A model generated the notes under the pieces. It had not been told where the DNA came from. It saw nothing but the letters and a program-made list of their open reading frames with translations, and searched no databases. 12,737 nt of DNA from Bryobacteraceae bacterium (GTDB lineage: Bacteria > Acidobacteriota > Terriglobia > Bryobacterales > Bryobacteraceae), in contig JANXXV010000852.1 of NCBI GenBank assembly GCA_025350445.1, positions 1 through 12,737 of the forward strand, read 5' to 3'. Positions 1 to 12,737 of the stretch are shown piece after piece. Made by a program: the position numbers and the translations under genes. Positions within the stretch are counted from its first letter, which is position 1. Each line of letters opens with the position of its first letter.

Positions 1-1681
1 TGCTGATATAGACCTGATTGGCCTTCACGAGATCACCTTGCAGGAAATAGGCGATGCCCGACGTTGTGTTCAGATGAATCTTGTTATATCCCGCATCGAG
101 ACTGAACCAATCCCGTGGAGTCCAGGTGGCATCGGCCGAGTAGTTCCGCGAACGCGAGCTGTAGGCCGACAAGGTGACGGAATTTGTGTTGTAGTTCGTG
201 CGGGCGGCTGCGCTGAGAACCAGCGATTTCACCTTGTACTGCACGCGTCCGTTAAGCGCCTGGTAGTTCTTTTCGCTAATCGGATAAAACGGACGGTCCG
301 CGCGGCCAACTTCGGCATCCAGCCGAATCGTCAGCGCCTTGGCAGGCTTTAACCTCACGCCAAACAGGCCCGCGTGTACGGTGTTTTCCTGTTCGGCCTT
401 GACACTGTCCGGAAATCCGGCGAAGACGGTTTGCTCGGTGGATCGGATGCGGCGATTGGAGAACTGATACCCGCCATACACCGACGCCCAATTGTTCCAT
501 TGATAGTTGACGTCGGTCGTATTGGTGATGGCGCGGATGCCCAGGTACTGAAAATTTACCAGCGTGGTGCTGAAAGTGGCGTTGTTGATCTCGGTGAACG
601 TGGAGTCGCCATCCATCCGGGTGCTGTGGAATGAGGTCTGATTGGTGATGGTGAGTTTGCTGCCGGGAAACAGCGTGGCCGTGAAATTGGCGGCGGTCAC
701 CGGTCTCCGCGCGTTACCGAAGACGTAGGTCTGGCGCAGGCGGTTCGATCCAAAACGATCCGTGCCAAGGGCGTTTTCGTCCAGGATGAAATCGCGCCGT
801 CCACCGGCGTATGTAAACCGTCCGCTCAGGCTGTAAAGCTTACTCCGGTCGGAAAGAATGTTCACCCGCCAACTATCCGTGCTGCCGTGATTTGGCTGCG
901 ATCTGGCAAAGGTGGCCAGCTTCACCGAATCGGTAAGATTGTTCCCCGGCTCCAATTGGCTTATTGTTGCTCCAGTATCGTCCTTGAAGAATTCCCAGCC
1001 CCGCAGAACGCCCAGCTTAATGCCCGCGATTTCAAATTCTCCGCCCAGCCGGTATTCATCCTGAACCCGGCGTATGTTGCTGAACAGCGGGAACTCGTCG
1101 CCGCGGCTGTCCGGATACTGGATGGTTGTCAGCGCCGGACCGCTTTGCGAGTTCCGGCCGTACCCCAGGAAGAACTTCAATTTGGCCTGCGGAAACAGTG
1201 TGAGCGACTGATCGTGGAAGCGGCGCGTGGTGTCGAGCAGATGTTGCCCGTTTGAGATAGTCAACGCCGGGTTGTAATAGTCGTTCTCGCGCCACAGCAA
1301 ATCGTAACGGTAAAGCTTATTCTTCTGAATCCGCAAATTCGCAAATTGGTAAGGATCGTTGCCCAGGCCGCCGGTGGTGAGCAGCAGTTCGTCGAAGTAG
1401 TGCCCGTGGCCATCCTTGGAATTCACCGTCAACGTGCTTCCGAGCAGGCGAATTCCGTTGCCGAAATTCACGTCGCTGCGGTATTTTCCGATGTTGCCGT
1501 CGACGGTGTGCCAGCGGTATCCGGTCTCAAAGGAGTTGGTGACGTTGTAATCGCCGGTATTTTCTCCGCGTGGCGGTCCCACGGGTTCATTGGTGGGCGC
1601 GACGACGGGCTGAGCGGCGGCAAACTCCGACAGTATGCCGATGAAAAGGAGAGCGGCAATAGCATGCCTGGCGACGCTCAT
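1..1681 (-). CDS. MtrB/PioB-class outer-membrane beta-barrel (porin of a porin-cytochrome conduit), C-terminus cut off by window edge
   Basis: Reading the minus strand from the ATG at 1681 gives an open frame of 560 codons with no stop before the window edge. The N-terminus is a signal peptide (MSVARHAIAALLFIGIL..., likely cut after AAA-23, before QPVV). The rest alternates polar and aromatic/hydrophobic residues, with many Tyr/Trp/Phe, Asn and Gly and no long hydrophobic helix, as expected for a large many-stranded barrel. The start is set by GAGG (1690-1693), 8 nt upstream, and by an ATGA overlap: its ATG shares bases with the TGA of the decaheme cytochrome. In the known MtrAB/PioAB/DmsEF systems such a barrel sheathes the periplasmic decaheme cytochrome and lets it reach through the outer membrane. 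Family members are roughly 650-800 residues, so the C-terminal strands are probably missing here. No CXXC is seen near the mature N-terminus, unlike Shewanella MtrB. The barrel class is fairly sure; the conduit role is inferred from the partner gene. Confidence 0.82.
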   Translation of the reverse strand, partial: MSVARHAIAALLFIGILSEFAAAQPVVAPTNEPVGPPRGENTGDYNVTNSFETGYRWHTVDGNIGKYRSDVNFGNGIRLLGSTLTVNSKDGHGHYFDELLLTTGGLGNDPYQFANLRIQKNKLYRYDLLWRENDYYNPALTISNGQHLLDTTRRFHDQSLTLFPQAKLKFFLGYGRNSQSGPALTTIQYPDSRGDEFPLFSNIRRVQDEYRLGGEFEIAGIKLGVLRGWEFFKDDTGATISQLEPGNNLTDSVKLATFARSQPNHGSTDSWRVNILSDRSKLYSLSGRFTYAGGRRDFILDENALGTDRFGSNRLRQTYVFGNARRPVTAANFTATLFPGSKLTITNQTSFHSTRMDGDSTFTEINNATFSTTLVNFQYLGIRAITNTTDVNYQWNNWASVYGGYQFSNRRIRSTEQTVFAGFPDSVKAEQENTVHAGLFGVRLKPAKALTIRLDAEVGRADRPFYPISEKNYQALNGRVQYKVKSLVLSAAARTNYNTNSVTLSAYSSRSRNYSADATWTPRDWFSLDAGYNKIHLNTTSGIAYFLQGDLVKANQVYIS

Positions 1682-2652
1682 CGCAGGAACCTCGAGTCCG
1701 CATTAGAGCCGTGTATCCGGACATGGCATGTGGTGCAATTCTGGTATCTGGGGTCCGCCATATTGTGCGAAGGACTTTGCGTCAGGATTCCCGCGCCCTG
1801 ACGGCCGAAGGTACCCGCGCCGTTGTGGCACTCAAGGCACAGCGTGAAGGTGACAGGCCGCTTCAGCAACCGGGCGTTCATAGATCCGTGCGGGTTGTGG
1901 CAGCTCTCACAGCCCTCCACGCGAACCGCCGCGTGCTCGAAGAGGAATGGACCGCGCTTGTCTATGTGGCACTTCAGGCAAGGCTCTTCGTTGCCTTGCG
2001 CCTGCTCCACCATTCGCGGGCGCAAGCCGGCGCGCCAGGTGGGCGCGGGCGATCCATGCGGATTATGGCAATCCGAACACTGAATGACGCCTTCGTTGAC
2101 CCGGTGTTTGAAGGGCATGGAGAACTGCGCCCGCACGGAAGAGTGGCAGGAATAGCAGAGGTCCGTCTGCTTCTTCGCCAACAGAAACTTTGGGGCCGCC
2201 GCCTTGTGAATGGAATGGCAACTGCTGCAAACCACATCGGTCAGGGTATGCGGGGACCTGCGGATATTGGCGCGCGAAAAGTCTTTCGCGTGACAGGTCA
2301 GGCAGTCGTCGAGGATTTCTTTCGGTTGCATCAGCGAGAAGGCGTGCGGGATGGTCGTCTTGCCGCCGCGAGCCTCGACGTGCGCCTTCGCCGGGCCGTG
2401 GCAACCTTCGCAGCCTGTCCGCGCGGGAGTTTCAGTTCCCGAGGCAATGCTTTTATAATGCGGATTCTTGTAAAAGTTCAACCAGATGTTCGGGTGGCAG
2501 GTCTTGCAGACCGCGCTGCCGACATACTCGGAAGAAGTTGGATTGGAGGGAGTTGCAGCAGGCCCGGACTGTGCCCGAGCCACTGCTAGAAAAACTACGA
2601 AAGAAATCAATACCCCGTTAGAAAGACCCACTTGCCCACTATGATAGACCAA
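1678..2652 (-). CDS. Periplasmic decaheme c-type cytochrome, MtrA/DmsE/PioA class
   Basis: The 324-residue product carries ten CXXCH heme-binding motifs with first cysteines near residues 49, 81, 117, 142, 166, 192, 225, 248, 272 and 306 (CKTCH, CEGCH, CLTCH, CSSCH, CYSCH, CSDCH, CLKCH, CESCH, CLECH, CTTCH). Two are followed by NPHGS, a repeat typical of this class. Length and heme count match MtrA/DmsE (about 330 residues, ten hemes). A hydrophobic export segment (VLISFVVFLAVARA, then Q) precedes the heme domain. Family knowledge: such proteins form a heme wire plugged into an MtrB-type barrel, and the next gene, overlapping by 4 nt, is such a barrel. The start is uncertain. The TTG at 2652 directly follows the TAA of the upstream gene in the same frame with no clear Shine-Dalgarno; GTG at 2631 and TTG at 2610 are alternatives. 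No version has a Lys/Arg in the signal n-region, which is odd. Confidence 0.92.
   Translation of the reverse strand: MVYHSGQVGLSNGVLISFVVFLAVARAQSGPAATPSNPTSSEYVGSAVCKTCHPNIWLNFYKNPHYKSIASGTETPARTGCEGCHGPAKAHVEARGGKTTIPHAFSLMQPKEILDDCLTCHAKDFSRANIRRSPHTLTDVVCSSCHSIHKAAAPKFLLAKKQTDLCYSCHSSVRAQFSMPFKHRVNEGVIQCSDCHNPHGSPAPTWRAGLRPRMVEQAQGNEEPCLKCHIDKRGPFLFEHAAVRVEGCESCHNPHGSMNARLLKRPVTFTLCLECHNGAGTFGRQGAGILTQSPSHNMADPRYQNCTTCHVRIHGSNADSRFLR
1690..1693 (-). promoter_or_regulatory. Ribosome-binding site for the large barrel, inside the cytochrome gene
   Basis: GAGG on the minus strand lies 8 nt before the ATG at 1681 and within the last codons of the cytochrome gene. With the 4-nt ATGA overlap (1678-1681) it implies translational coupling, which would keep cytochrome and barrel in fixed proportion. 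Confidence 0.6.
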
Positions 2653-3288
2653 TTAGAAAGCGAATGAGATTCCCGCGGTCGCAACGATGTTGTTGAACCA
2701 GCCGCTGGCCTTCGAGTTCAACGCAGGTGTAATGATCTTCGACGGGAAAGGCGTGATGTAATCGTGGACGTCGACACGAAATAGGATACGGTTCGTCAAG
2801 GCAACCTTCACTCCCGCCCCAACCGAGAGCATGCCCTGCACCTCCGTAGTCTTCGTCAAGAGAGCGATATTGCTGAGCGGCTGGAACGGAACTTCCGTTC
2901 CGGTGCCCCGATAGAACTTGATACCGCCGCCCGCCGCAACGTACGGCCTGATGGTTGAGCCCACCGGAGTGGCATGGATCAGAAAGTCATAGTTGATGGC
3001 ATGCGACTCGGCGCCAAAGGTCGCCTTGGCGGAGCCGGAGCTCAGCTTGGCGTCATTGTGGAGATAGGTGTAGCGGACCTCGCCGCCGACATGTTGGTAC
3101 ATGTTATTGCCGACGGCAACGCTACCCGCCCAGCCATTGTCGAATCCGGCGCTGGCATCCCCTTTTGGATTGGTGACCGTATGGGACTGATAGAAGCTCC
3201 CGCCGCCAGCCAGGGCGAATTCGTATTTCTGAGCGAAGGCCGGAAGAACCGTCAACGCGGCCGTGATGGTGTAGAGGAAGATTCGCAT
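2653..3288 (-). CDS. Small outer-membrane beta-barrel protein (OmpA/OmpW-like 8-strand type)
   Basis: The 211-residue protein begins with a signal peptide (MRIFLYTITAALTVLPAFA, cut before QKYE). It continues as alternating beta-strands (for example EFALAGGGSFYQ, HVGGEVRYTYL, IRPYVAAGGGIKFY, GMLSVGAGVKVAL, ILFRVDVHDYI) and ends in ISFAF. A C-terminal phenylalanine on the last strand is the recognition signal for the BAM outer-membrane assembly machinery. Size and pattern fit the generic 'outer membrane beta-barrel' domain of about eight strands. The ATG at 3288 has an AAGG about 10 nt upstream, so its ribosome-binding site is moderate. It lies 41 nt after the propeller gene and directly abuts the cytochrome gene, so it is probably in one operon with both. 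Its specific role is unknown; it could be a structural barrel or an accessory to the electron conduit. Confidence 0.8.
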   Translation of the reverse strand: MRIFLYTITAALTVLPAFAQKYEFALAGGGSFYQSHTVTNPKGDASAGFDNGWAGSVAVGNNMYQHVGGEVRYTYLHNDAKLSSGSAKATFGAESHAINYDFLIHATPVGSTIRPYVAAGGGIKFYRGTGTEVPFQPLSNIALLTKTTEVQGMLSVGAGVKVALTNRILFRVDVHDYITPFPSKIITPALNSKASGWFNNIVATAGISFAF

Positions 3289-3329
3289 AGAGTTATGGCC
3301 TTAAGTTGTTTGCTCGATATATTCGGTTA

Positions 3330-6326
3330 CTACTCAACAACCCGGACCGCTACCGACGTAGAGCCGGTGCCCTGACTGATGACAAGCGGTACGCTGAGCC
3401 CGAGCGGCACGCGGCCGTTTACCCGAACGTTAATCTGATATACGCCGATCTGCCCCGGGGTCAACCCGGCGAATTCCACAGCGACGGGGACGCCTCCGAT
3501 TGTGACGAACAGCGGAATTACCACGCCGGCGAGTTCATCGGTAGGCGCCGGCGTCCCAGGCGGAACTTCCGGACTGGTCCGGCCGAGGCCGGTTGCGTAG
3601 ATGACGATCGTGTCGGTCCGATGCACCGGATTGGACGGCGTCACCAGCTCATTATTGGATGCGCGGAGGATGGCTGCGCTGGACCCATCGGGACCGGCCG
3701 AGGCAATTCGGAACACGCTCGGAGCTGCCGGAAGAATCGTGAGGTTAAAGTTGTCGCTCACGCCGCCCGGAGTATATACGGTCAGTGTGGTGTTGCCATC
3801 AAAATTCGGCAATTGGCCGTTGATCTGCGTGGGGGAAACGAACAGAACCGGCACGCCTAGACCGTTCACCTGTAAGCAGCTGTCCGCCAGTGCGGTCGGC
3901 AACGATCCAGGCGTTGTCGCCTGGCTGATGGGACTCAAGTTCGTTCCAAACACCGTGATCAAACCGCCCGGGGCAATCGGCTGCGAGAAGTCCGCTGCAT
4001 TGACTACACGATCGATCGAGGGGGGTGCAACCGCGGCGGCGTAATTCCAGGGAAGAACGGTGAATCCCGATGTCGTCAGGGCGATGATCGCCGTCCGGTT
4101 AGCCAGCGGAGCGAGCGTCCGGGTAAAGGGCAGGGTGGCCAGCGGATCGCTCAAGAGTGGGGCTTCGATGATGCGAGTTACACCGGATCCCGTGCCGGAC
4201 TGTAAGTCCACCTTCTGAATGATTCCGGGACTCGAGGCATTTGGCGCGGTAATGCGCAGTCCGCTTTGGTCGATGAAGGCAAATCCCGACGAGAGGCCGG
4301 TACCGGTTTCCAGCTGGCGAACGGCAACCAACGAAGAGTTCAACAGGGTATTGCCTACTACGAACTGATCGAAGCTCGACGCGGCATAGGCGCCGGATAG
4401 CGCCGTTGAGTCTTTCCGCGAAATCGTGAACGTGTCGGCGTTCGAATTGTAGAGGAGCACATTCCCATCTCCTTCGACCGCCATGATCGAAGAGCCATTA
4501 GGCGAGGCGACCAACGCAGTATTGATGTTGATGTCGTTCTTATACACACCCAGGCTCGGAAGCTCGGTAGCAGTCCGGGAATTCAGATCGACCTTGTCGA
4601 TCGTATGAATGGGCCCGGCAACGCGGTTCGCCACCAGAATGGCGCCCGCCGAGGATGCCACGGACTTCGGATAGTGCCCACCCGGCATCCGGACGGGTTG
4701 AGTAGCCTGGAGAGTCTCGAGATCGTATACGTAGAGTAGCTGCGAATCGGTGGAACCGGCTAGCAGATAGCGGCGGTCAAACGTGATGGCCATCTGGGTC
4801 GGCGTGTTGCCTGTGCGCAAGGTGGCGATTTGCGTATTCGAGTTGGAATCGAAAACAAGGACTTGATTCTTATCCTGCCTGAGAATATAGAACCGCGCCC
4901 GGGCGGGGTCCGGCAGGATATCCACCAGCTTGCCGGGAACATTGACGAACGTACCGCGCTGGTCGGGCTGCCGCGTATTGACGATCACCCTGATGGAGGT
5001 TGGCAGGTTTATGGCACGAGCCGAAGCGATGCCGATGGTCCCGACGGTGGTGCCCTTCGAATTCTGGAAGCTTGCCGGGTCAACGCTGATGCGAATTCGG
5101 GCCGGAGTGGTTCCACTGGTCGGAGAAACACGGACACCCGCCGGAATGTTGGTCAGTGAAAAGTCGGTGTTCGCTCCGCTCTGATCGAGGATGGTGATCT
5201 CTTGCGAGGCGGCTTGCCGGTCGCAGAAACTTCCGCGGAAGACCACGTCCTCCTGCGAGGCGGTCACGCGCCGTGCCTGGCTCAAACTTCCCACCGGAAA
5301 CACCGTGACACCGCTGTCCGAAATCGAATAGAGCGTATTATAGTCGTTCGAAAGAACGCTCTTGCCGGCGAGATTCTCCGCCAGTTGTATCCGCTCCCGC
5401 ACCGCCAGATTGTCGGCTTCCACAATTTGAAGGATGGGCGGGTTTGTGACGCCCGCAACGACCGGTGTCGGCATCTGCGCATAGATCAACCCGCGGGAGG
5501 AGTCAATCGCGTGGCTGCCGATGCTTAGATCGCCCGTCGGGCTTGGGAATTCGGACATTAAGCCGAAGCGGCCGCCGAAGATACCGGCGCCTTCAAACAG
5601 ACCCCAACCTGCCGCGAAAACAGATCCATCCTGATTGACGCTGACCACCCTCGGGCCTAGCGGCGGAGAAGCGACATAAAGGCCGGCCCGAACGGTTCGC
5701 GTATTTACGTCGTAGCCAAAGCGGATGGTGTCGGTAAGTCCATAGATTTTCAACCCGTCCCTAGAGGCGGCAAGAGAAGCGGTTGTAATTTGAAGCGGGA
5801 AAGACGCAGGCGGTTGTGGAAGCGTCTTCGTCGTCACATTCGCGATTGTGTCGAGGGTAACTGTTGTGCCGAGGACCGGGTCGAACAGCAGGAACTCGCT
5901 TGCGGTTGCGACGAATGCGCGATTGTCGATCCCAAACGCTACTCCGAAGGGAGGCGCTCCAAGAGCGAACGTCTGCCTCGCATTCGTCTCCAGGTTGATG
6001 ACGGTAAGCCCGTTCGACGGAGATTGAGGTTTGTCAAAATTCCCATAGTGGGCAATGACGAGATACTTTCCGTCTGGCGACACCGACAGCGAGGCCGGCT
6101 GCGATGGTACATTAATAGAGCGCTGCACCGTATTATCAGCCAGCGACATCACGTCAATGCGGTTCGCAGTGAAATTCGCGATGTACAGGACACCCCGCCC
6201 TTCGTCCAGCGCTAGATCCGACGCGTGGCCGCCAATGGCGACTACTTTGCCGAACGTTCCCGCCCAGGCCGAAGCCGCGAGGCATACCGCGATCGTAACT
6301 CCCCAAATCCAGGACTTGCTTTTCAT
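3330..6326 (-). CDS. Secreted double beta-propeller protein with Ig-like linker and Solibacter-type C-terminal domain
   Basis: Using the ATG at 6326 the product is 998 residues. This start is preferred over a TTG at 6377 because GAGGG lies 8 nt upstream (6335-6339) and a clean signal peptide follows (MKSKSWIWGVTIAVCLAASAWA). Residues ~25-345 contain YVTN/WD40-like propeller blades (GRGVLYIANFTANRIDVMSL, SPDGKYLVIAHYG). Residues ~365-455 look like an all-beta Ig/BACON-like segment (FSLTNIPAGVRVSPTSGTTP). Residues ~463-760 form a second propeller (ARFYILRQDKNQVLVFDSN, RRYLLAGSTDSQLLYVYDLE). Residues ~768-995 match the TIGR03437-type domain: VVNAADFSQPIAPGG, VFGTNL, VLFVSPTQINGQLP, IYATGLGRTSPEVPPGTPAP and PGQIGVYQINVRV. 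The domain's function is not known. No enzyme motif is seen, so a binding or scaffold role outside the cytoplasm is inferred. It heads the cluster that includes the small barrel, cytochrome and large barrel. Confidence 0.85.
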   Translation of the reverse strand: MKSKSWIWGVTIAVCLAASAWAGTFGKVVAIGGHASDLALDEGRGVLYIANFTANRIDVMSLADNTVQRSINVPSQPASLSVSPDGKYLVIAHYGNFDKPQSPSNGLTVINLETNARQTFALGAPPFGVAFGIDNRAFVATASEFLLFDPVLGTTVTLDTIANVTTKTLPQPPASFPLQITTASLAASRDGLKIYGLTDTIRFGYDVNTRTVRAGLYVASPPLGPRVVSVNQDGSVFAAGWGLFEGAGIFGGRFGLMSEFPSPTGDLSIGSHAIDSSRGLIYAQMPTPVVAGVTNPPILQIVEADNLAVRERIQLAENLAGKSVLSNDYNTLYSISDSGVTVFPVGSLSQARRVTASQEDVVFRGSFCDRQAASQEITILDQSGANTDFSLTNIPAGVRVSPTSGTTPARIRISVDPASFQNSKGTTVGTIGIASARAINLPTSIRVIVNTRQPDQRGTFVNVPGKLVDILPDPARARFYILRQDKNQVLVFDSNSNTQIATLRTGNTPTQMAITFDRRYLLAGSTDSQLLYVYDLETLQATQPVRMPGGHYPKSVASSAGAILVANRVAGPIHTIDKVDLNSRTATELPSLGVYKNDININTALVASPNGSSIMAVEGDGNVLLYNSNADTFTISRKDSTALSGAYAASSFDQFVVGNTLLNSSLVAVRQLETGTGLSSGFAFIDQSGLRITAPNASSPGIIQKVDLQSGTGSGVTRIIEAPLLSDPLATLPFTRTLAPLANRTAIIALTTSGFTVLPWNYAAAVAPPSIDRVVNAADFSQPIAPGGLITVFGTNLSPISQATTPGSLPTALADSCLQVNGLGVPVLFVSPTQINGQLPNFDGNTTLTVYTPGGVSDNFNLTILPAAPSVFRIASAGPDGSSAAILRASNNELVTPSNPVHRTDTIVIYATGLGRTSPEVPPGTPAPTDELAGVVIPLFVTIGGVPVAVEFAGLTPGQIGVYQINVRVNGRVPLGLSVPLVISQGTGSTSVAVRVVE

Positions 6327-6334
6327 AGGACCAA

Positions 6335-6339
6335 CCCTC
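6335..6339 (-). promoter_or_regulatory. Ribosome-binding site deciding the propeller-protein start
   Basis: GAGGG on the minus strand is 8 nt upstream of the ATG at 6326. It places translation start at the methionine immediately before the signal peptide, not at the earlier in-frame TTG at 6377. Confidence 0.65.
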
Positions 6340-6348
6340 AGATCAACC

Positions 6349-6372
6349 TTCGAGAAAAATTTTCCGCTCGAA
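6349..6372. promoter_or_regulatory. Perfect 6-bp inverted repeat upstream of the propeller gene (possible operator)
   Basis: TTCGAG at 6349-6354 is mirrored by CTCGAA at 6367-6372, separated by 12 bp that contain an AT-rich AAAAATTTT core. The dyad ends 22 bp upstream of the ATG at 6326. Its symmetry and AT-rich centre suit a dimeric regulator's binding site; as RNA it could also form a small leader hairpin. No regulator can be named and chance is possible. Confidence 0.3.
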
Positions 6373-6393
6373 AACAAACACCGATGCTAGTGA

Positions 6394-6418
6394 CCGGCCC
6401 ACGGAACCCGCGGGCCAG
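6394..6418 (-). terminator. GC-rich hairpin between the small membrane gene and the propeller gene
   Basis: The arms 6396-6404 (GGCCCACGG) and 6408-6416 (CCGCGGGCC) pair with one wobble around a 3-nt loop and extend outward by about two more pairs. Read on the minus strand, the stem is not followed at once by a T-run; the nearest T-rich stretch (6375-6382 region) is some 14 nt further on. It may be an imperfect terminator for the Tad transcript, or a leader structure of the propeller gene. Confidence 0.35.
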
Positions 6419-6435
6419 CCGAAGTGCATTTACTT

Positions 6436-6473
6436 AGCGGGCGGGACGCGGCGGCATCTCGCCGGCGCCCGCT
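6436..6473 (-). repeat. Inverted repeat just downstream of the small membrane-protein gene
   Basis: AGCGGGC (6436-6442) and GCCCGCT (6467-6473) are perfect 7-bp arms, with a further inner CGGC/GCCG pairing. On the minus strand this stem begins 20 nt after the stop at 6493. There is no T-tract, so it is more likely an mRNA 3'-end-stabilising or pausing structure than a standard intrinsic terminator. Confidence 0.35.
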
Positions 6474-6492
6474 CTTGGAATTTCTAACTCAA

Positions 6493-6585
6493 CTAGTCGG
6501 CGCTTTTTTTGCGGCGCATTACGATCAGGCCCAGAAGTACAACGGCGATGATCGAGCATACGAGCCGTACTGTAGACGAATCCAT
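6493..6585 (-). CDS. 30-residue single-pass membrane protein downstream of tadC
   Basis: ATG at 6585 to TAG at 6493 encodes 30 residues: a short polar head (MDSSTVR), one hydrophobic segment at residues 8-23 (LVCSIIAVVLLGLIVM) and a positive tail (RRKKSAD). By the positive-inside rule the tail should face the cytoplasm, giving an N-out/C-in single-pass topology. A strong GGGAG (6594-6598) lies 8 nt upstream, the best support that it is translated. It lies 120 nt after tadC on the same strand and is followed by an inverted repeat. No function is known to me. The hydrophobic-plus-RRKK layout resembles the C-terminal anchor of sorted surface proteins but without a sorting motif. A run of seven A residues occurs in the RKK codons. 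An accessory role in the Tad machine is only a guess from position. Confidence 0.62.
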   Translation of the reverse strand: MDSSTVRLVCSIIAVVLLGLIVMRRKKSAD

Positions 6586-6593
6586 TTTGTGTT

Positions 6594-6598
6594 CTCCC
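6594..6598 (-). promoter_or_regulatory. Ribosome-binding site of the 30-residue membrane protein
   Basis: GGGAG on the minus strand, 8 nt before the ATG at 6585, within an AT-richer context. It selects this short frame over the overlapping 67-codon frame, whose start at 6637 lacks a comparable site. Confidence 0.6.
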
Positions 6599-6610
6599 TA
6601 TCAAAATATC

Positions 6611-6661
6611 CGGGCGTGATATCCCCAGCGGGAACACCCGGTGCGCGGCCGGCTGGCGCGC
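6611..6661 (-). other. Spacer after tadC with two imperfect hairpins
   Basis: The 120-nt spacer between tadC (stop at 6706) and the small membrane gene holds two imperfect dyads. One is 6643-6661 (GCGCG/CGCGC arms). The other is 6611-6640 (CGGG/CCCG outer arms, a bulge, then CCC/GGG around a 3-nt loop). On the minus strand the second is followed by ATATTTTGATA, a weak T-run. They could reduce read-through from tadC or mark an RNA-processing point. No other gene or promoter is evident here. Confidence 0.3.
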
Positions 6662-6705
6662 TCTTATGGTGCCGGCAAGTCAATCCACTACACCAACGCA
6701 ACCTG

Positions 6706-7626
6706 TTAAATCGACATCATCATCGGGATCAATTCGCGAACGATCCTCACGGCCACGGGGCCAACGGTAACCACAAACAGCGTGGGCAAGATACAAAAAA
6801 AGATCGGGAAAATCAGTTTGACGCCGAGCTTGGCCGCCTTCTCCTCGGCGATCTGCCGGGCCTGGACGCGCATGTAATCCGCATGTCCCCGAAGGCTCTG
6901 CGCGACCCCCGTTCCAAATCGGTCCGCCTGGATCAGAACCGCAACCAACTTCTTCAGATCGTTCACTCCGGTGCGTTCAGCCAAATTCCTGAGGGCCTCG
7001 ATCCTTCGCTTGCCGGCCTTCAATTCCAGGTTCACCAACGAATACTCTTCACTGATCTCCGGGTGGGCGTGCTGCAACTCCTTGGCCACCTGCATGATGG
7101 CCTGATCCAGGCCTAAACCGGACTCCACGCAGACCACCATCAGATCGAGAGAGTTCGAAAGTCCGCGCTGAATCTGTTTCTGCCGGCGCGCGCCGACGAT
7201 CTTTACATACTCATTCGGCCCGAAAAAGCCCATCGCCACCGCGGCAAGCACAGCCATCACCTTATTAGCCTGTTCGGCGCCCGAGTTAGCGACTAGCAAA
7301 AGCGTGATCAGAGGCAGCAGGATCGCGCAAACCAATTTCGCGCCGTACAAAGTCTTCAAAGCATTTTCGCCGCGGAAGCCGGCACGAATCAGCCGCCGCT
7401 GCATCGTGTTTGCATCCTTCGGATTGGAAGGAATGACGTTGCCGATCTTTTTCATCAAGTCGGCGAAAACCAGACTCGGATGCGGCCCCGCGTGTTCGCG
7501 CGGGTCGATCATAACGCCGGACACCCGCTCCATCGCTTCCTTGGGACGAACCCAAAAGCGCAGGCCGGCCACCGCGATCATGACCACCAGGAACACGAAC
7601 AGGAACAAACTCATGAAAATAGCCAT
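6706..7626 (-). CDS. tadC: Tad pilus inner-membrane platform protein TadC (type II secretion F family)
   Basis: The 306-residue protein has an N-terminal membrane helix (residues ~4-22), two more helices (~97-113 and ~122-137), a cytoplasmic helical F-domain (~155-265: NSLDLMVVCVESGLGLDQAI, then RTGVNDLKKLVAVLIQADRFGTGVAQSL) and a C-terminal hydrophobic hairpin (~268-300). The SGLGLDQAI and QADRFGTGVAQSLR elements are typical of TadC. With TadB it forms the inner-membrane platform on which the TadA ATPase acts to extrude the pilus. The ATG at 7626 is 5 nt after the tadB stop, with GAGGT (7636-7640) inside the last tadB codons, indicating coupling. It is the last recognisable tad gene before the 379-nt gap region. 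Confidence 0.93.
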   Translation of the reverse strand: MAIFMSLFLFVFLVVMIAVAGLRFWVRPKEAMERVSGVMIDPREHAGPHPSLVFADLMKKIGNVIPSNPKDANTMQRRLIRAGFRGENALKTLYGAKLVCAILLPLITLLLVANSGAEQANKVMAVLAAVAMGFFGPNEYVKIVGARRQKQIQRGLSNSLDLMVVCVESGLGLDQAIMQVAKELQHAHPEISEEYSLVNLELKAGKRRIEALRNLAERTGVNDLKKLVAVLIQADRFGTGVAQSLRGHADYMRVQARQIAEEKAAKLGVKLIFPIFFCILPTLFVVTVGPVAVRIVRELIPMMMSI

Positions 7627-7631
7627 TGTGG

Positions 7632-8609
7632 TCAGACCTCAATCGTTACAATCTTCTTCATGATCAGGTATCCCGTTATCTGCAGAAAGACCGCGGTACC
7701 TAACATCAAGTTGCCGGTTTCGTCCTTGAAAAAGAACGTCACATAATCCGGATTGGTGAAGAACATCAAGATGGCTACGCCAATCGGAATACACGAAAGA
7801 GCGATGCCGGTTAACTTGCCGTGCGCGCTGATGGCGCGAATCCGGCCCCGCAGTTTGAACCGCTCCCGAATGATATAAGCCAACTTGTCTAAAATTTCGG
7901 CAAGGTTGCCACCGGTCCGCTTCTGCAGTAAGACCGCCGAGACAAAAAAGTGAACATCGAGCAGCGGCACGCGCTTGGCGAGCGACTGCAAAGCCACATC
8001 CAAGGGAAGCCCGAGGTTGTGCTCCTCAAAAGTGCGGCGGAATTCTCCAGCCAGCGGCTCCTGGAATTCCCGGTGGATCATTTCCAGCGAAACGGAAAAG
8101 GCGTGGCCGGCACGCATCGAACGGGAGATAAACTCCAGGCTATCGGGGAAAATCTCCTCAAATGCCTTGATTCGCTTCCCCTTGAGGCGCAAAACATAAA
8201 ACAGCGGCAGGAACCCGGCGAAGATCGCGATGAAGATGGCCAGCGGCCGCGCCGAATCCGGTAGCACCAGGTACATAATGACGTAGGCCCCAATGAAGAA
8301 TGCCATGCAGCTATGAATGAATCGGCCGGGATTCCATCTCAGGCCGGCCTGCTCGAGCAATTGCTTCAGCTTTTCGTTCAGCTTGTACTTCTCGAGGATA
8401 CCGATGACGATCTTTCCTTTCGCCGGTTCTTCCGCGGTAAAGAGTGCCGCCTCTTCAGGGTTCGCGCCCTTAGCTTTCTTCTGCTGTTTCCCCATCAAGC
8501 GGCCCTTGATACGGTCCATGTCCGCGTTTCGAACAGACTTTGATACCATCAGCCAGACTGCCAAGGCAAGCAGCCATATGCCGATTACTGTGAATATGAA
8601 AGTTGTCAT
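7632..8609 (-). CDS. tadB: Tad pilus inner-membrane platform protein TadB (type II secretion F family)
   Basis: The 325-residue protein has a membrane helix at ~4-22, a charged linker, an amphipathic stretch (LNEKLKQLLEQAGLRWNPGRF, residues ~77-97), two helices (~98-115 and 121-140), the F-domain (~150-260: FPDSLEFISRSMRAGHAFSV, LLQKRTGGNLAEILDKLA) and two final helices (~264-284 and 300-318). RSMRAGHAF and TGGNLAEILD are strong TadB/GspF signatures. It partners TadC beneath the secretin and is driven by TadA. GAGGG (8617-8621) overlaps the tadA stop codon and stands 7 nt from the ATG at 8609, so translation is likely coupled to tadA. Length is normal and no defect is seen. Confidence 0.94.
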   Translation of the reverse strand: MTTFIFTVIGIWLLALAVWLMVSKSVRNADMDRIKGRLMGKQQKKAKGANPEEAALFTAEEPAKGKIVIGILEKYKLNEKLKQLLEQAGLRWNPGRFIHSCMAFFIGAYVIMYLVLPDSARPLAIFIAIFAGFLPLFYVLRLKGKRIKAFEEIFPDSLEFISRSMRAGHAFSVSLEMIHREFQEPLAGEFRRTFEEHNLGLPLDVALQSLAKRVPLLDVHFFVSAVLLQKRTGGNLAEILDKLAYIIRERFKLRGRIRAISAHGKLTGIALSCIPIGVAILMFFTNPDYVTFFFKDETGNLMLGTAVFLQITGYLIMKKIVTIEV

Positions 8610-8619
8610 CGGTATACCC

Positions 8620-9981
8620 TCAAATCTCCATCACTTCGTCGAACAGGTCGGGACGCAGCCGGATTCCGGCCGCCAGTAATTTCTCGTAGAACTTAGGCCG
8701 GATGCCGGTGGCCGCAAACCGGCCGATCACCTTGCCCTCCGGACTCAGGCCGCGCTTCTCAAACACAAAAATATCCTGCAGAGTGACGATGTCGCCTTCC
8801 ATGCCCGTCACCTCCGTAATGCTCATGATGCGGCGCGAACCGTCGCTGAGGCGCATCGGCTGCACAAGGACATTCACAGCGGCGGCGATCTGCTGGCGGA
8901 TGGAAACCATCTGCATGTTGGCGGCGGCCATCGAAACCATCACCTCCAGGCGCGAAACTGCGTCGCGGGGGCTGTTGGCGTGGACCGTGGTCAGCGAGCC
9001 GTCGTGGCCGGTGTTCATCGCCTGCAACATGTCGAGCGCCTCTCCGCCGCGGACTTCACCAACCACGATCCGGTCGGGACGCATGCGAAGACTGTTCACC
9101 AGCAATTCTCTGATACGCACCGCGCCATTTCCTTCGAGATTCGGCGGCCTGGTTTCAAGACGGGCGACGTGCGGCTGCTTCAATTGCAGTTCCGCCGCGT
9201 CTTCAATGGTGACGATGCGCTCTTTTGGATTGATGTACGCCGATAGCGCGTTTAGCAGGGTGGTCTTACCGGAACCGGTGCCACCGGAAATAATGATATT
9301 CAGCTTCGCCTTTACCGCGGCTTCCAGCAGTTCCATCATGCCGGGCGTCATCGCCTTGCGATCCACCAGATCCGGCGCCGTGAGTTTGTCCTGCGCAAAG
9401 CGGCGAATCGACATCAGCGGCCCGTCCAGCGCAAGCGGAGGAATAATTGCGTTGACGCGCGAGCCGTCCATCAGCCGCGCATCCACCATTGGCGTCGATT
9501 CATCCACGCGCCGGCCAACCTGCGACACGATTTTGTCGATGATGCGGAGCAGGTGCTGATCGTCGCGGAAGGTGACGCTGGTCAACTCCAAAAGGCCTTT
9601 GCGCTCTATGTAAACCTGTTTATGGCCATTCACCAGAATGTCGGAGATGCTATTGTCGGCAAGCAGCGGTTCGAGCGGGCCAAGACCGAAAACCTCATCC
9701 AGCACCTCATCGGAGATCTGCTGCTTTTCAAGCCCGCTCAGCAGCGTGGGCTCGCCGTCAATGAGCGAAATCAGCGCCTGCCGGACTTCTCCGCGGACAC
9801 GCTGGTTGTCGATCGTAGCCAAGGCTTCGAGATTGATCTTGTCGAGAAGCTTGCGGTGCAACGTGAATTTCAGTTCCTGATATTCCGGCTTGAGGCTCTG
9901 GCGAGGCTGGCCGGAGTTCTTCAGCAGGCGTTGCTCCCAGGAGAGCTGTGCGGGCGATCTTTGGTCGTGTGTCGGAAGCAT
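8620..9981 (-). CDS. tadA: Tad pilus motor ATPase CpaF/TadA (type II/IV secretion ATPase)
   Basis: The 453-residue cytoplasmic ATPase carries all expected motifs: Walker [10 protein letters not shown] (residues 233-241, Lys239), an Asp box ([10 protein letters not shown], ~258-267), Walker [17 protein letters not shown] (~304-319, Glu309) and a His box ([14 protein letters not shown], ~324-337). The N-terminal half has the usual helical part and the sensor-like domain ([20 protein letters not shown], ~98-117; [18 protein letters not shown]). It hydrolyses ATP to assemble, and in some bacteria retract, Flp pili through TadB/TadC. The ATG at 9981 lies 14 nt after the tadZ stop, with only a weak ribosome-binding site, so it may depend on coupling. 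No missing catalytic residue was found. Confidence 0.96.
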
Positions 9982-9995
9982 GTTTATCTATCGGC

Positions 9996-11201
9996 CTAAG
10001 TTTGCGAGAGCGCTAGTCTCGTGGCGGCGAATCCTGAAGTCCCTTTTTTGTCAAGCCGCGCCGAACCGCAGAGCTTGCTTGCCAGTTCCTCTACCGCCTT
10101 GCCTAATTCCGTATCCCCTTCCAGCGCTTCTCCCAGCGTCACTACCCGGTGAAGAGAAAAGTAATCGTTCGGAAGGCTGATGTCGATCGGCCCGCCGAAG
10201 AGCTTGCTCAAATCCGATCCGCTCAATCCATCGCGCTTATCGAGGCGATTGATGATCATCTGGAAACGGCTTGCATCAAACCCGAGGTGGTTCAGCAGCT
10301 TGATTGCCCGCCGGGCCAGATGCAGGCTCGCCAGTTCGGAGGTAGATACCAGGAATGCCCGATCCGAATGCGAAAGAGCCAACAGACTGACGCGGTTGAA
10401 AATCGACGGAAGGTCCACTATCACCCAGTCGTAGAGCATGCGCGCATACTGCAGCACGTCATGCAAACGGCCCGGGTCCACTGGTTCGGAATAGGGCATT
10501 TCCGGAGAAGGCAAAACTTCGATCATCCCGGCGCTGACGGTCATCGACGACCAGAGCCGCGCATCCATTCGTTCGGCGTTCTCCAGAACGTCAACCAACG
10601 AATGGGTCTGGTCCAATTTCAAATAGAATCCGAGCGTTCCGCCCATAAGGTCGAAATCGGCCAGCAACACCCGCTTTCCAGTGGTACGCTGCAACGCGAA
10701 CGCCGTTTGAGCCGCCAGCGTCGAGGCCCCGGACCCCGGCTTCGTACTCGAGAAGACAACCACCTTTCCCAACTCCCGCTCGGCCCCCCCTTCCGGCTGA
10801 ATCATACGCTGGAGCCGTGAGATTGCCGCTTCCTGAGTGGATGGATCAAAGGGCGCATGCAGAAATTCGGAAGCTCCCACCCGCAGCGATCTAAGAATCG
10901 CGTCCGAATCGTTCTTCAGATGCAGCCCCACAACCTGGATGGGCGGTTTTTGCAGGCTGATGTAACGAATCAGGTCGCAGGCGGCGTTGAGGTCGGTGGC
11001 GAGGTCGACGAGAATCACATCGGGACGGAGTTGGCGCAGACGCATCTCAAGAGTTTGCTCTACCGGATACACCTTCAGATCGGACACAATCTGGAAACTC
11101 TTGACCCGCGAGACCGATTGAGAAAACTGGTCCGCAAGCTCCCGGTTAGGGGAGATGATCAGCGCCGTGATTTCTCTTCCGTTATTTACCATGTCTTGCA
11201 T
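9996..11201 (-). CDS. tadZ: Pilus localisation ATPase CpaE/TadZ, MinD/ParA-like with altered Walker A
   Basis: The 401-residue protein has an N-terminal receiver-like domain (~10-130; ALIIS, DVILVDL with Asp66, VGASEFLHAPFDP) and a MinD/ParA-type ATPase domain (~145-375). The deviant Walker A is KPGSGAST (154-161): the signature lysine (Lys154) is kept but the usual second P-loop lysine is Ala159. Walker A' is ADFDLMGGTLG (~181-191) and Walker B is DWVIVDLPS (~258-266). The receiver lacks the conserved lysine near its end (HAPF where KPF is usual), so ordinary phosphorelay seems unlikely. Family role: it marks the cell position where the Tad apparatus is built. It lies 21 nt after the secretin gene. 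GAAGGA sits very close to the ATG at 11201; the in-frame ATG at 11192 is an alternative start. Confidence 0.92.
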   Translation of the reverse strand: MQDMVNNGREITALIISPNRELADQFSQSVSRVKSFQIVSDLKVYPVEQTLEMRLRQLRPDVILVDLATDLNAACDLIRYISLQKPPIQVVGLHLKNDSDAILRSLRVGASEFLHAPFDPSTQEAAISRLQRMIQPEGGAERELGKVVVFSSTKPGSGASTLAAQTAFALQRTTGKRVLLADFDLMGGTLGFYLKLDQTHSLVDVLENAERMDARLWSSMTVSAGMIEVLPSPEMPYSEPVDPGRLHDVLQYARMLYDWVIVDLPSIFNRVSLLALSHSDRAFLVSTSELASLHLARRAIKLLNHLGFDASRFQMIINRLDKRDGLSGSDLSKLFGGPIDISLPNDYFSLHRVVTLGEALEGDTELGKAVEELASKLCGSARLDKKGTSGFAATRLALSQT

Positions 11202-11222
11202 TCATCCTTCGATCGCGGATCT

Positions 11223-12656
11223 CTATCCTTTGGACTTCGGTTCGGTTGAATCGGACGTCTTCACCGCTTTCGCTTTCTTCGGCTTCGCCGGAGCAGCCGA
11301 ACCCGTACTTTCCTTGTCGGGCGCAGGCACCGGCGCAAGGAATTCCCTGGGCATAACCGGTATCGGAACCTGGTCGCCAGGCTCGTAAGGTTTCACGATT
11401 TCCGGCGTCACAATCACCACCAGTTCAGTGCGAGCCTTCTTCTGTTCCCTGCTCTTAAAAATCACACCAAGCAATGGGATGTTTGCCAGACCAGGAGTTT
11501 TAGAAAGCTGTTCGGTGACCCGGTCGTCGATCAAACCGCCAATCACGAAACTCTGTCCCTGTCCCAGCTCGATATTGGTTTCCATGCGCCGGGTAGATAG
11601 CGCCGGGATGAAGAATCCGGAAATGTTCACACCGTTGGCGGTATCGAGGGCGGAAACTTCCGGTTTCACGTACATTTTGATGGTATTGTTTTCAGTCACC
11701 ACCGGATTAAAGGTCAGACGAATTCCAAATTCGCGGAACTGAATGGTAACCGCGCCGGCATTGCCGCCGCCCTGCAATACGGGAATCGGAAATTCACCAC
11801 CGACCAGAAAGCTAGCCTCTTTTCCATTCGTGGTCACCAGATTCGGCTCGGCGAGAATTTGCAACACGGAATCTTGTTCCAATGCCTTGATAAAAGCGCC
11901 GAGATTCAGGTCCGGCCGGAAGGCGAACACGTTCAGCGCATCGGTAATTGTCAATTTGGTGGGGACGCCTCCTCCAATTTGGCTGATCGCAGCCGAGTTG
12001 AACTGGCCGGTTGAATAGCTACCGATCGTATTCGCCGCGCCGGTGGAAAAAATGTTCACACCCAGTTGCTGAACTCTTGCCCGGTCCAACTCGGCAAACT
12101 TGACCTTAAGTACAATTTGACGGTCTACAGGGGCAATCGGCAGCATCAGATAATTGACCACCGTCTTGGCAAACGGAGACACCATGGCGACGGCGCGGTC
12201 GCCGATATCCTTGGAAGAAACCCGTCCGGTCAACGACAACGAGTCGCGGGTGGACTGAATCTGAATATCTTCCTTCGGGAAGGTTTCCTTCATCAGCCGC
12301 CGGAGCGGCTCCAGATTCTGCTCGACGTTGATGGCGTAAATGGAGCGCTGCCCGCTCTTCGACCAAACAATAATCGTCGAGGTGCCCGGACCTTTCGCGC
12401 TCAAAAGCATTTCGCGCGTGGTTACCGCCATGGTGTCAACCACCGACGGATCGCTGGTAGAGATCTGCCGGATGTCCGTCGGATAATCGAGAACAATACT
12501 CTTCCCAACTGTCAACTTCAGCTCTTCAATCTGTTGACCGAAGGCGGCCTGTTGGCTAAAGGCGGCGCAAACTCCCAAAGCCAGAACCACGGGAGTACGC
12601 ATGCTTCTCTTTACGTTCCGAAACGAGATACTGCTGCTAAACAGAGTCATGTCCAT
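11223..12656 (-). CDS. cpaC: Tad pilus outer-membrane secretin CpaC/RcpA
   Basis: The 477-residue product has an export signal (RTPVVLALGVCAAFSQQAAFG, cut near residue 40), an N-terminal pilus-formation domain (~43-112: LKLTVGKSIVLDYPTDIRQI, LLSAKGPGTSTIIVW), a BON-like domain (~115-173: LTGRVSS, VVNYL) and the secretin domain (~180-420). The last includes ILAEPNLVTTNGKEASFLVG, the signature FVIGGLIDDRV...TPGLANIPLLGVIF (~370-400) and the final strand ELVVIVTPEIV. It forms the multimeric outer-membrane pore for the pilus. A Lys/Pro/Ala-rich tail (~440-477) extends beyond the barrel. The start is uncertain: ATG at 12656 and ATG at 12650 (GGGG 9 nt upstream) are both reasonable, and ATG at 12602 would give a conventional short signal peptide. 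It begins about 9 nt after the cpaB stop. Confidence 0.95.
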   Translation of the reverse strand: MDMTLFSSSISFRNVKRSMRTPVVLALGVCAAFSQQAAFGQQIEELKLTVGKSIVLDYPTDIRQISTSDPSVVDTMAVTTREMLLSAKGPGTSTIIVWSKSGQRSIYAINVEQNLEPLRRLMKETFPKEDIQIQSTRDSLSLTGRVSSKDIGDRAVAMVSPFAKTVVNYLMLPIAPVDRQIVLKVKFAELDRARVQQLGVNIFSTGAANTIGSYSTGQFNSAAISQIGGGVPTKLTITDALNVFAFRPDLNLGAFIKALEQDSVLQILAEPNLVTTNGKEASFLVGGEFPIPVLQGGGNAGAVTIQFREFGIRLTFNPVVTENNTIKMYVKPEVSALDTANGVNISGFFIPALSTRRMETNIELGQGQSFVIGGLIDDRVTEQLSKTPGLANIPLLGVIFKSREQKKARTELVVIVTPEIVKPYEPGDQVPIPVMPREFLAPVPAPDKESTGSAAPAKPKKAKAVKTSDSTEPKSKG

Positions 12657-12665
12657 GATCCCCGA

Positions 12666-12737
12666 CTAATTTGTAGGCCCCACGCGCTCAACCGTTCTGG
12701 TATTTCCGCGGATAACAACTACCTCCGGCGGTGGAGG
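12666..12737 (-). CDS. cpaB: C-terminal end of Flp pilus assembly protein CpaB/RcpC (partial)
   Basis: Only the last 23 codons and a TAG (12666-12668) are inside the window. The tail reads VVVIRGNTRTVERVGPTN, resembling the V-E-V-I-R-G-x-x-R-x-V-E ending common in CpaB/RcpC. CpaB is a periplasmic SAF-domain protein that works with the CpaC secretin, and cpaB directly before cpaC is the standard tad order. The stop is 9 nt before the secretin ATG at 12656. The call rests on a short motif plus context. Confidence 0.7.
   Translation of the reverse strand, partial: PPPPEVVVIRGNTRTVERVGPTN

Follow-up and report, generated by a model that had tools for sequence, protein, structure and literature searches.

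Two adjacent genes at one end of a 12,737-nucleotide stretch of Bryobacteraceae DNA (contig JANXXV010000852.1, positions 1 to 12,737; hereafter the window) probably encode an electron conduit of the porin-cytochrome type, akin to MtrA-MtrB or OmcK-OmcL. Soils are rich in acidobacteria, yet little is known of how these bacteria can respire. Conduits of this type are known; the pair looks like a simple and widespread form made of just two genes, with the customary external partner missing from its side. A first-pass annotation of the window had proposed such a conduit, and the proposal is supported by our analysis, in which the cytochrome passes the DmsE-family hidden Markov model (HMM) and MtrB is the best fold match of a completed 92% relative of the barrel. 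If true, much of the order holds a conduit that escapes the MtrB/PioB models and is distinct from the MtrCAB already reported there. The pair would then be a minimal two-protein conduit, and the need for MtrC would become testable in an order with cultivated members. The features that make up the pair are:

1678..2631, minus strand: exported decaheme c-type cytochrome of the DmsE/MtrA family, 317 amino acids from a GTG at 2631, ten CXXCH motifs, TIGR03508
2..1681, minus strand: putative conduit barrel, its fold MtrB-like and GSU2204 its nearest type; signal peptide present, frame open, C-terminal ~105 residues outside the window
1678..1681, minus strand: ATGA stop/start overlap of the two genes, read directly

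The decaheme cytochrome and the outer-membrane barrel

The minus-strand open reading frame 2652-1678 reads directly as 324 codons with ten CXXCH motifs, as had been noted for a 324-residue exported protein. The frame itself stands, opening on a TTG at 2652 immediately behind the stop of the upstream gene; as the real start, the GTG at 2631 is favoured, because the eight closest relatives (P0121-P0128) are every one 317 amino acids long. The GTG is followed by a signal peptide ending AVARA-Q, which, like that of the barrel, was judged by eye without a prediction tool. Over 10,000 shuffles of the residues of the 317-amino-acid form, CXXCH turned up 0.08 times on average and at most 3 times, against the ten of the real protein. 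With TIGR03508 (DmsE family) the cytochrome scores 277.2 bits over residues 45-319 (curated cut-off 192.2), bearing out the DmsE-type decaheme suggested earlier. Its best sequence match in the PDB is 6r2q_A (E 4.4e-36), a chain listed as 'Cystathionine beta-synthase' in an entry entitled 'Structure of the Mtr complex'; we take chain A to be MtrA and chain B to be MtrB. Across 53 cytochrome sequences twenty histidines never vary, ten of them belonging to CXXCH and the other ten free, and the same holds in a 46-sequence set that includes ten cytochromes from the MtrCAB clusters described below. The ten CXXCH sites, with the ten free histidines as candidate distal ligands, would accommodate ten hemes.

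The barrel frame (1681-2) is stop-free to the edge of the window over 560 residues, contains no cysteine and starts with a signal peptide (..EFAAA-QP), in agreement with the frame of at least 560 codons first described as running off the window. At E up to 0.001 the barrel has 1910 relatives. The closest full-length one, P0001 (92% relative), has 665 amino acids, so about 105 barrel residues should lie beyond the window. MtrB is the clear best fold match of full-length P0001, which supplies the likeness expected of a completed barrel. On the sequence side, nine of 37 barrels weakly match NF041027 (GSU2204 family; best E 7.3e-6), and the window barrel does not match it at E up to 0.01. A profile of barrels from window-type pairs (A1) matches that of the MtrCAB-cluster barrels (A2) at E 7.8e-55. 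A2 in turn matches PF11854 at 32.3 bits against a cut-off of 23 for member 1, and six of nine A2 members match at E up to 0.1. Through these intermediate sequences the window-type barrel is tied by homology to PF11854 barrels.

Pairing and spread among relatives

Relatives stand in for the window's own genome in all genome-level counts. A contig scan returned 114 cytochrome relatives, the best 80 of which were kept, making 81 loci with the window. The cytochrome served to select the loci, which leaves the barrel as the independent half of the pairing; it lies directly behind the cytochrome in 81 of 81 loci, window included (motif search). A length-based gene caller lost genes, finding the cytochrome cluster in 58 of the 81 loci, and a codon-usage caller still missed the cytochrome in nine; pairing was therefore counted by motif search and multiheme neighbours by a six-frame count. 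A single locus of the 81, L056, has nine CXXCH in its cytochrome. The 4-nucleotide ATGA overlap is present in the window at 1678-1681, as originally noted. As a conserved family trait it was rejected, since a barrel start at -4 is possible in only 34 of 81 loci (and is the called start in 15); in 80 of 81, a start falls between -4 and +30 relative to the stop of the cytochrome.

Taxon names of Acidobacteriota are borne by 78 of the 80 related loci, and in the barrel tree the rows nearest to the window are likewise Acidobacteriota, its own place being fixed by no starred branch; both results support the acidobacterial origin proposed for the window. Two loci named by title as 'Bordetella parapertussis' (L064) and 'Acidimicrobiia' (L060) have barrels among the Bryobacterales in the tree and are probably mislabelled metagenome bins. 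In a sample of 120 genomes from the order of genome G001 (up to ten barrel candidates scored per genome, quality not given), 75 had a barrel match of at least 650 bits, 14 one of 460-650 bits, 24 weaker matches only and seven none. One genome of the 460-650-bit class, G038, has a stop inside the barrel. The cytochrome adjoins the barrel in all nine neighbourhoods inspected (seven of the 14, two further of the 75). Because seven distant regions (L095-L101, the called cytochrome frame of L098 being partial) keep the pair without the Tad genes or short protein described below among their called genes, the two-gene pair is the core of the arrangement.

No OmcA/MtrC-type cytochrome was found beside the pair in the relatives' loci; the window ends inside the barrel, with its own downstream side unseen. 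In all six frames of the 81 loci, 49 of which have 5 kb on both sides, there is just one other frame with at least three CXXCH. It lies in L034 (2172-4421), has nine CXXCH and stands on the opposite strand ~5.3 kb from the pair.

A separate MtrCAB cluster in the same genomes

Ten genomes, chosen for holding the pair, were inspected for a second cluster. All ten contain a second TIGR03508 cytochrome over the cut-off, and in each case its region also holds a barrel-sized frame and a 10-heme protein, 675-780 residues long. The A1 profile detected the second barrel in eight of the ten genomes, and a 4-heme gene stands beside the second cytochrome in six of the regions. Both of the 10-heme proteins that were scanned (NCBIfam) belong to the OmcA/MtrC family at more than 500 bits, and this family was over its cut-off at the second-cluster place in all seven inspected genomes within the order sample. 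The accessible part of PMC8805035 describes a Group 5 MtrCAB of Acidobacteriia with a tetraheme gene in all members, and the second cluster fits this description. Because this MtrC-containing cluster coexists as a separate cluster, the window pair is distinct from the acidobacterial Group 5 MtrCAB. MtrC-family matches at E up to 1e-20 were obtained in 54/75, 1/14, 19/24 and 0/7 genomes of the four barrel classes of the order sample, from strongest match to none, and 34 of the 89 barrel carriers show no MtrC match, an upper estimate (drafts, up to eight candidates scored per genome).

Of 16 genomes, 10 gave NapC/NrfH-family matches, and in four of these 10 the matches fall within an MtrCAB region or at its edge. 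In L091 the MtrCAB-cluster barrel (5900-7997) is split over two frames, by a sequencing error or in a broken gene. Near the same cluster (11438-13543) lies a 701-amino-acid protein that combines a cytochrome b561 domain with eight CXXCH and is reminiscent of CbcL-type quinone oxidoreductases.

Proposed electron transfer, direction and alternatives

As part of a conduit, the exported cytochrome would receive ten bis-histidine hemes in the periplasm and sit within the barrel, where its hemes would form a chain leading from the periplasm to the cell surface; we infer heme loading and insertion into the barrel from the solved Mtr complex. Periplasmic cytochromes would feed the ten-heme cytochrome, and its outermost heme would pass electrons to an outside acceptor, which may be iron oxide, humics, a soluble shuttle or a surface cytochrome encoded elsewhere.

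The DmsE-named model would also suit a DmsEF-type conduit that serves an extracellular molybdenum reductase for dimethyl sulfoxide (DMSO), iodate or similar. However, the MtrCAB-cluster cytochromes pass TIGR03508 as well, so the name does not decide. Molybdopterin enzymes are present in 10/10 relative genomes, on other contigs in eight and at distances of ~190 kb and ~700 kb from the pair in the remaining two, and no molybdenum reductase (DmsAB) was found near the pair in these ten, mostly many-contig, genomes. We consider this reading extremely unlikely. Very unlikely, too, is a role in envelope redox or heme handling that involves no electron export, such as protection or sensing. This would suit the many carriers that are presumed to be aerobic soil heterotrophs, but the two proteins have as their best matches the two partner chains of a single solved electron conduit, and none of the twenty histidines varies.

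A further alternative accepts the conduit and disputes its direction only: electrons would flow inward, supplied by Fe(II), by a cathode or by a partner cell, as in PioAB/MtoAB or as proposed for syntrophic OmcKL. We regard inward flow as possible, if unlikely. The pair has no adjacent MtrC, and PioAB and MtoAB are likewise not known to have one. What is accessible of PMC8805035 is in line with MtrC-less PioAB and MtoAB, and an excerpt of PMC10654088 reports PioA/MtoA homologs in Acidobacteriia. The barrel carriers without an MtrC match, an upper estimate as stated, point the same way. Against this, no HiPIP (PioC) was found in 10/10 relative genomes, the family being detected in one of 14 control genomes. 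In addition, Paludibaculum fermentans, a described Bryobacterales relative and a heterotroph, reduces Fe(III) according to the available part of PMC8407742 (presence of the pair in its genome unchecked). The Dms- and Pio-type readings were thus both tested and lowered, by the lack of a molybdenum reductase near the pair and of HiPIP in the ten genomes. In the portion of Table 2 of PMC4070692 at hand, GSU2203 and GSU2204 are up in Geobacter sulfurreducens on hematite or magnetite. Within the conduit reading, we somewhat favour outward electron flow.

Several points weigh against a conduit, or against outward flow through it. No experiment on this pair family was found in the open-licence literature. 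The AlphaFold model of the cytochrome is weak (pLDDT 65) and was used for one fold search only, in which 6r2q_A was the sole match at E up to 0.001. For P0001, the Foldseek E value of MtrB (1.1e-12) is scarcely ahead of that of TonB-dependent receptors (2.2e-12), although TM-score and Z separate the two. A sequence search of the PDB with the barrel alignment gave no matching chain, so the MtrB link of the barrel rests on fold and the profile bridge. The MtrB/PioB HMMs PF11854 and TIGR03509 are absent from the matches of 37 barrel members at E up to 0.1 (TIGR03509 was also found in 0/10 genomes, where the controls were silent too, so this is not used as proof of absence), and some single members also weakly match EpsL, OmpX, BamA and OMP_b-brl models. 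Of the MtrB/PioB family membership first suggested for the barrel, the direct match therefore fell away, while the weak GSU2204-family matches and the profile bridge stood. Kinship does not fix direction either, because the OmcK/OmcL homologs of HotSeep-1 are proposed, in the accessible text of PMC10553843, as an inward conduit in sulfate-reducing partners of methanotrophic archaea. The Fe(III) reduction of P. fermentans could, moreover, rest on other cytochromes.

Genomic setting

In the window, Tad-type pilus genes, a propeller gene, a small barrel gene, the cytochrome and the conduit barrel follow each other on one strand. The genes upstream of the cytochrome are:

2653..3288, minus strand: small outer-membrane beta-barrel protein, 211 amino acids (PF13505, 35.4 bits against a cut-off of 28.7)
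3330..6377, minus strand: beta-propeller protein, 1015 amino acids, with a Solibacter C-terminal domain (TIGR03437, 186.6 bits) and a YNCE-like propeller
6706-7626, minus strand: TadC-like (Pfam T2SSF)
7632-8609, minus strand: TadB-like (Pfam T2SSF)
8620-9981, minus strand: TadA-type ATPase (Pfam T2SSE)
9996-11201, minus strand: TadZ/CpaE-like (Pfam AAA_31)
11223-12656, minus strand: secretin (Pfam Secretin and T2SS-T3SS_pil_N)

The names Tad and CpaE for the 6706-12656 genes are our reading of the domains and their order. The propeller protein also weakly matches a lactonase-type nitrous-oxide reductase model (19.8 bits against a cut-off of 700); the match looks like propeller likeness only. 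Because the small barrel gene ends right before the TTG of the cytochrome, the small barrel, cytochrome and conduit barrel are likely transcribed together, as a unit of three or more genes.

Tad genes were called in 25 of 61 loci with more than 7.5 kb upstream of the barrel, and the small barrel cluster upstream in 30 of 79 loci with more than 2.2 kb of flank (window counted in both). Behind the barrel, 41 of 70 loci with downstream sequence have a short hydrophobic protein of ~104 amino acids with an LLRFEF-like motif (for example L001:12901-13212). All three counts are probably lower bounds because the gene caller missed real genes. The short protein accompanies the small barrel in 27/27 loci, versus 14/41 loci without a small barrel, and had no Pfam or NCBIfam match in the three members scanned. 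Mapped on the barrel tree, the small-barrel label takes 13 changes, whereas shuffled labels average 23.5 (0/500 shuffles as low); among the carriers compared, barrel identity has a median of 50% (378 pairs). The arrangement is thus old and repeatedly changed, which speaks for linkage, not function.

The Tad genes are neighbours of the conduit, and a link between them is unproven. Quite unlikely, in our judgement, is a pilus-coupled conduit: in a large part of Bryobacterales, the pair would be built into a Tad-pilus locus with propeller, small barrel and short membrane protein, the pilus holding the cell to a mineral or partner surface while the MtrC-free conduit exchanges electrons by direct contact.

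Comparison with known systems

Parts of the system are already known: the available sections of PMC3669403 and PMC7399161 cover acidobacterial MtrA/DmsE sequences and porin-cytochrome clusters in Holophaga, respectively. In the open-licence literature we found neither a description of this pair without MtrC in Bryobacterales nor one of its linkage to Tad genes.

Like Shewanella DmsEF, the pair has a cytochrome that passes TIGR03508, but no molybdenum reductase was found near it in ten genomes. With PioAB of Rhodopseudomonas and MtoAB of Sideroxydans it shares the decaheme-plus-barrel design, the barrel of that type being 26-stranded by a model in the accessible part of PMC10654088; unlike PioAB, it comes with no HiPIP in the ten genomes and its barrel falls below the MtrB_PioB models. 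GSU2203-GSU2204 (OmcK-OmcL) of G. sulfurreducens, in which we infer OmcL to be GSU2204, likewise combines a decaheme cytochrome with an MtrB/PioB-type barrel. The window cytochrome reaches 219 bits with NF041028 (GSU2203 family), under the curated cut-off of 325, and nine of 37 barrels match NF041027. That family is named CXXCH-containing and (seleno)protein (see also PMC13188914), whereas the 560 residues of the barrel in the window include no cysteine. The HotSeep-1 OmcK/OmcL homologs resemble the pair in that the available text of PMC10553843 gives no further periplasmic cytochrome gene adjacent. Unlike MtrCAB, the pair has no multiheme gene beside it, hence neither MtrC nor the Group 5 tetraheme. 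It shares an MtrA-like decaheme and an MtrB-fold barrel with both Shewanella MtrCAB and the Group 5 MtrCAB of Acidobacteriia (PMC8805035, in part); the barrels of the two acidobacterial clusters are homologous, and the clusters coexist in the ten inspected genomes.
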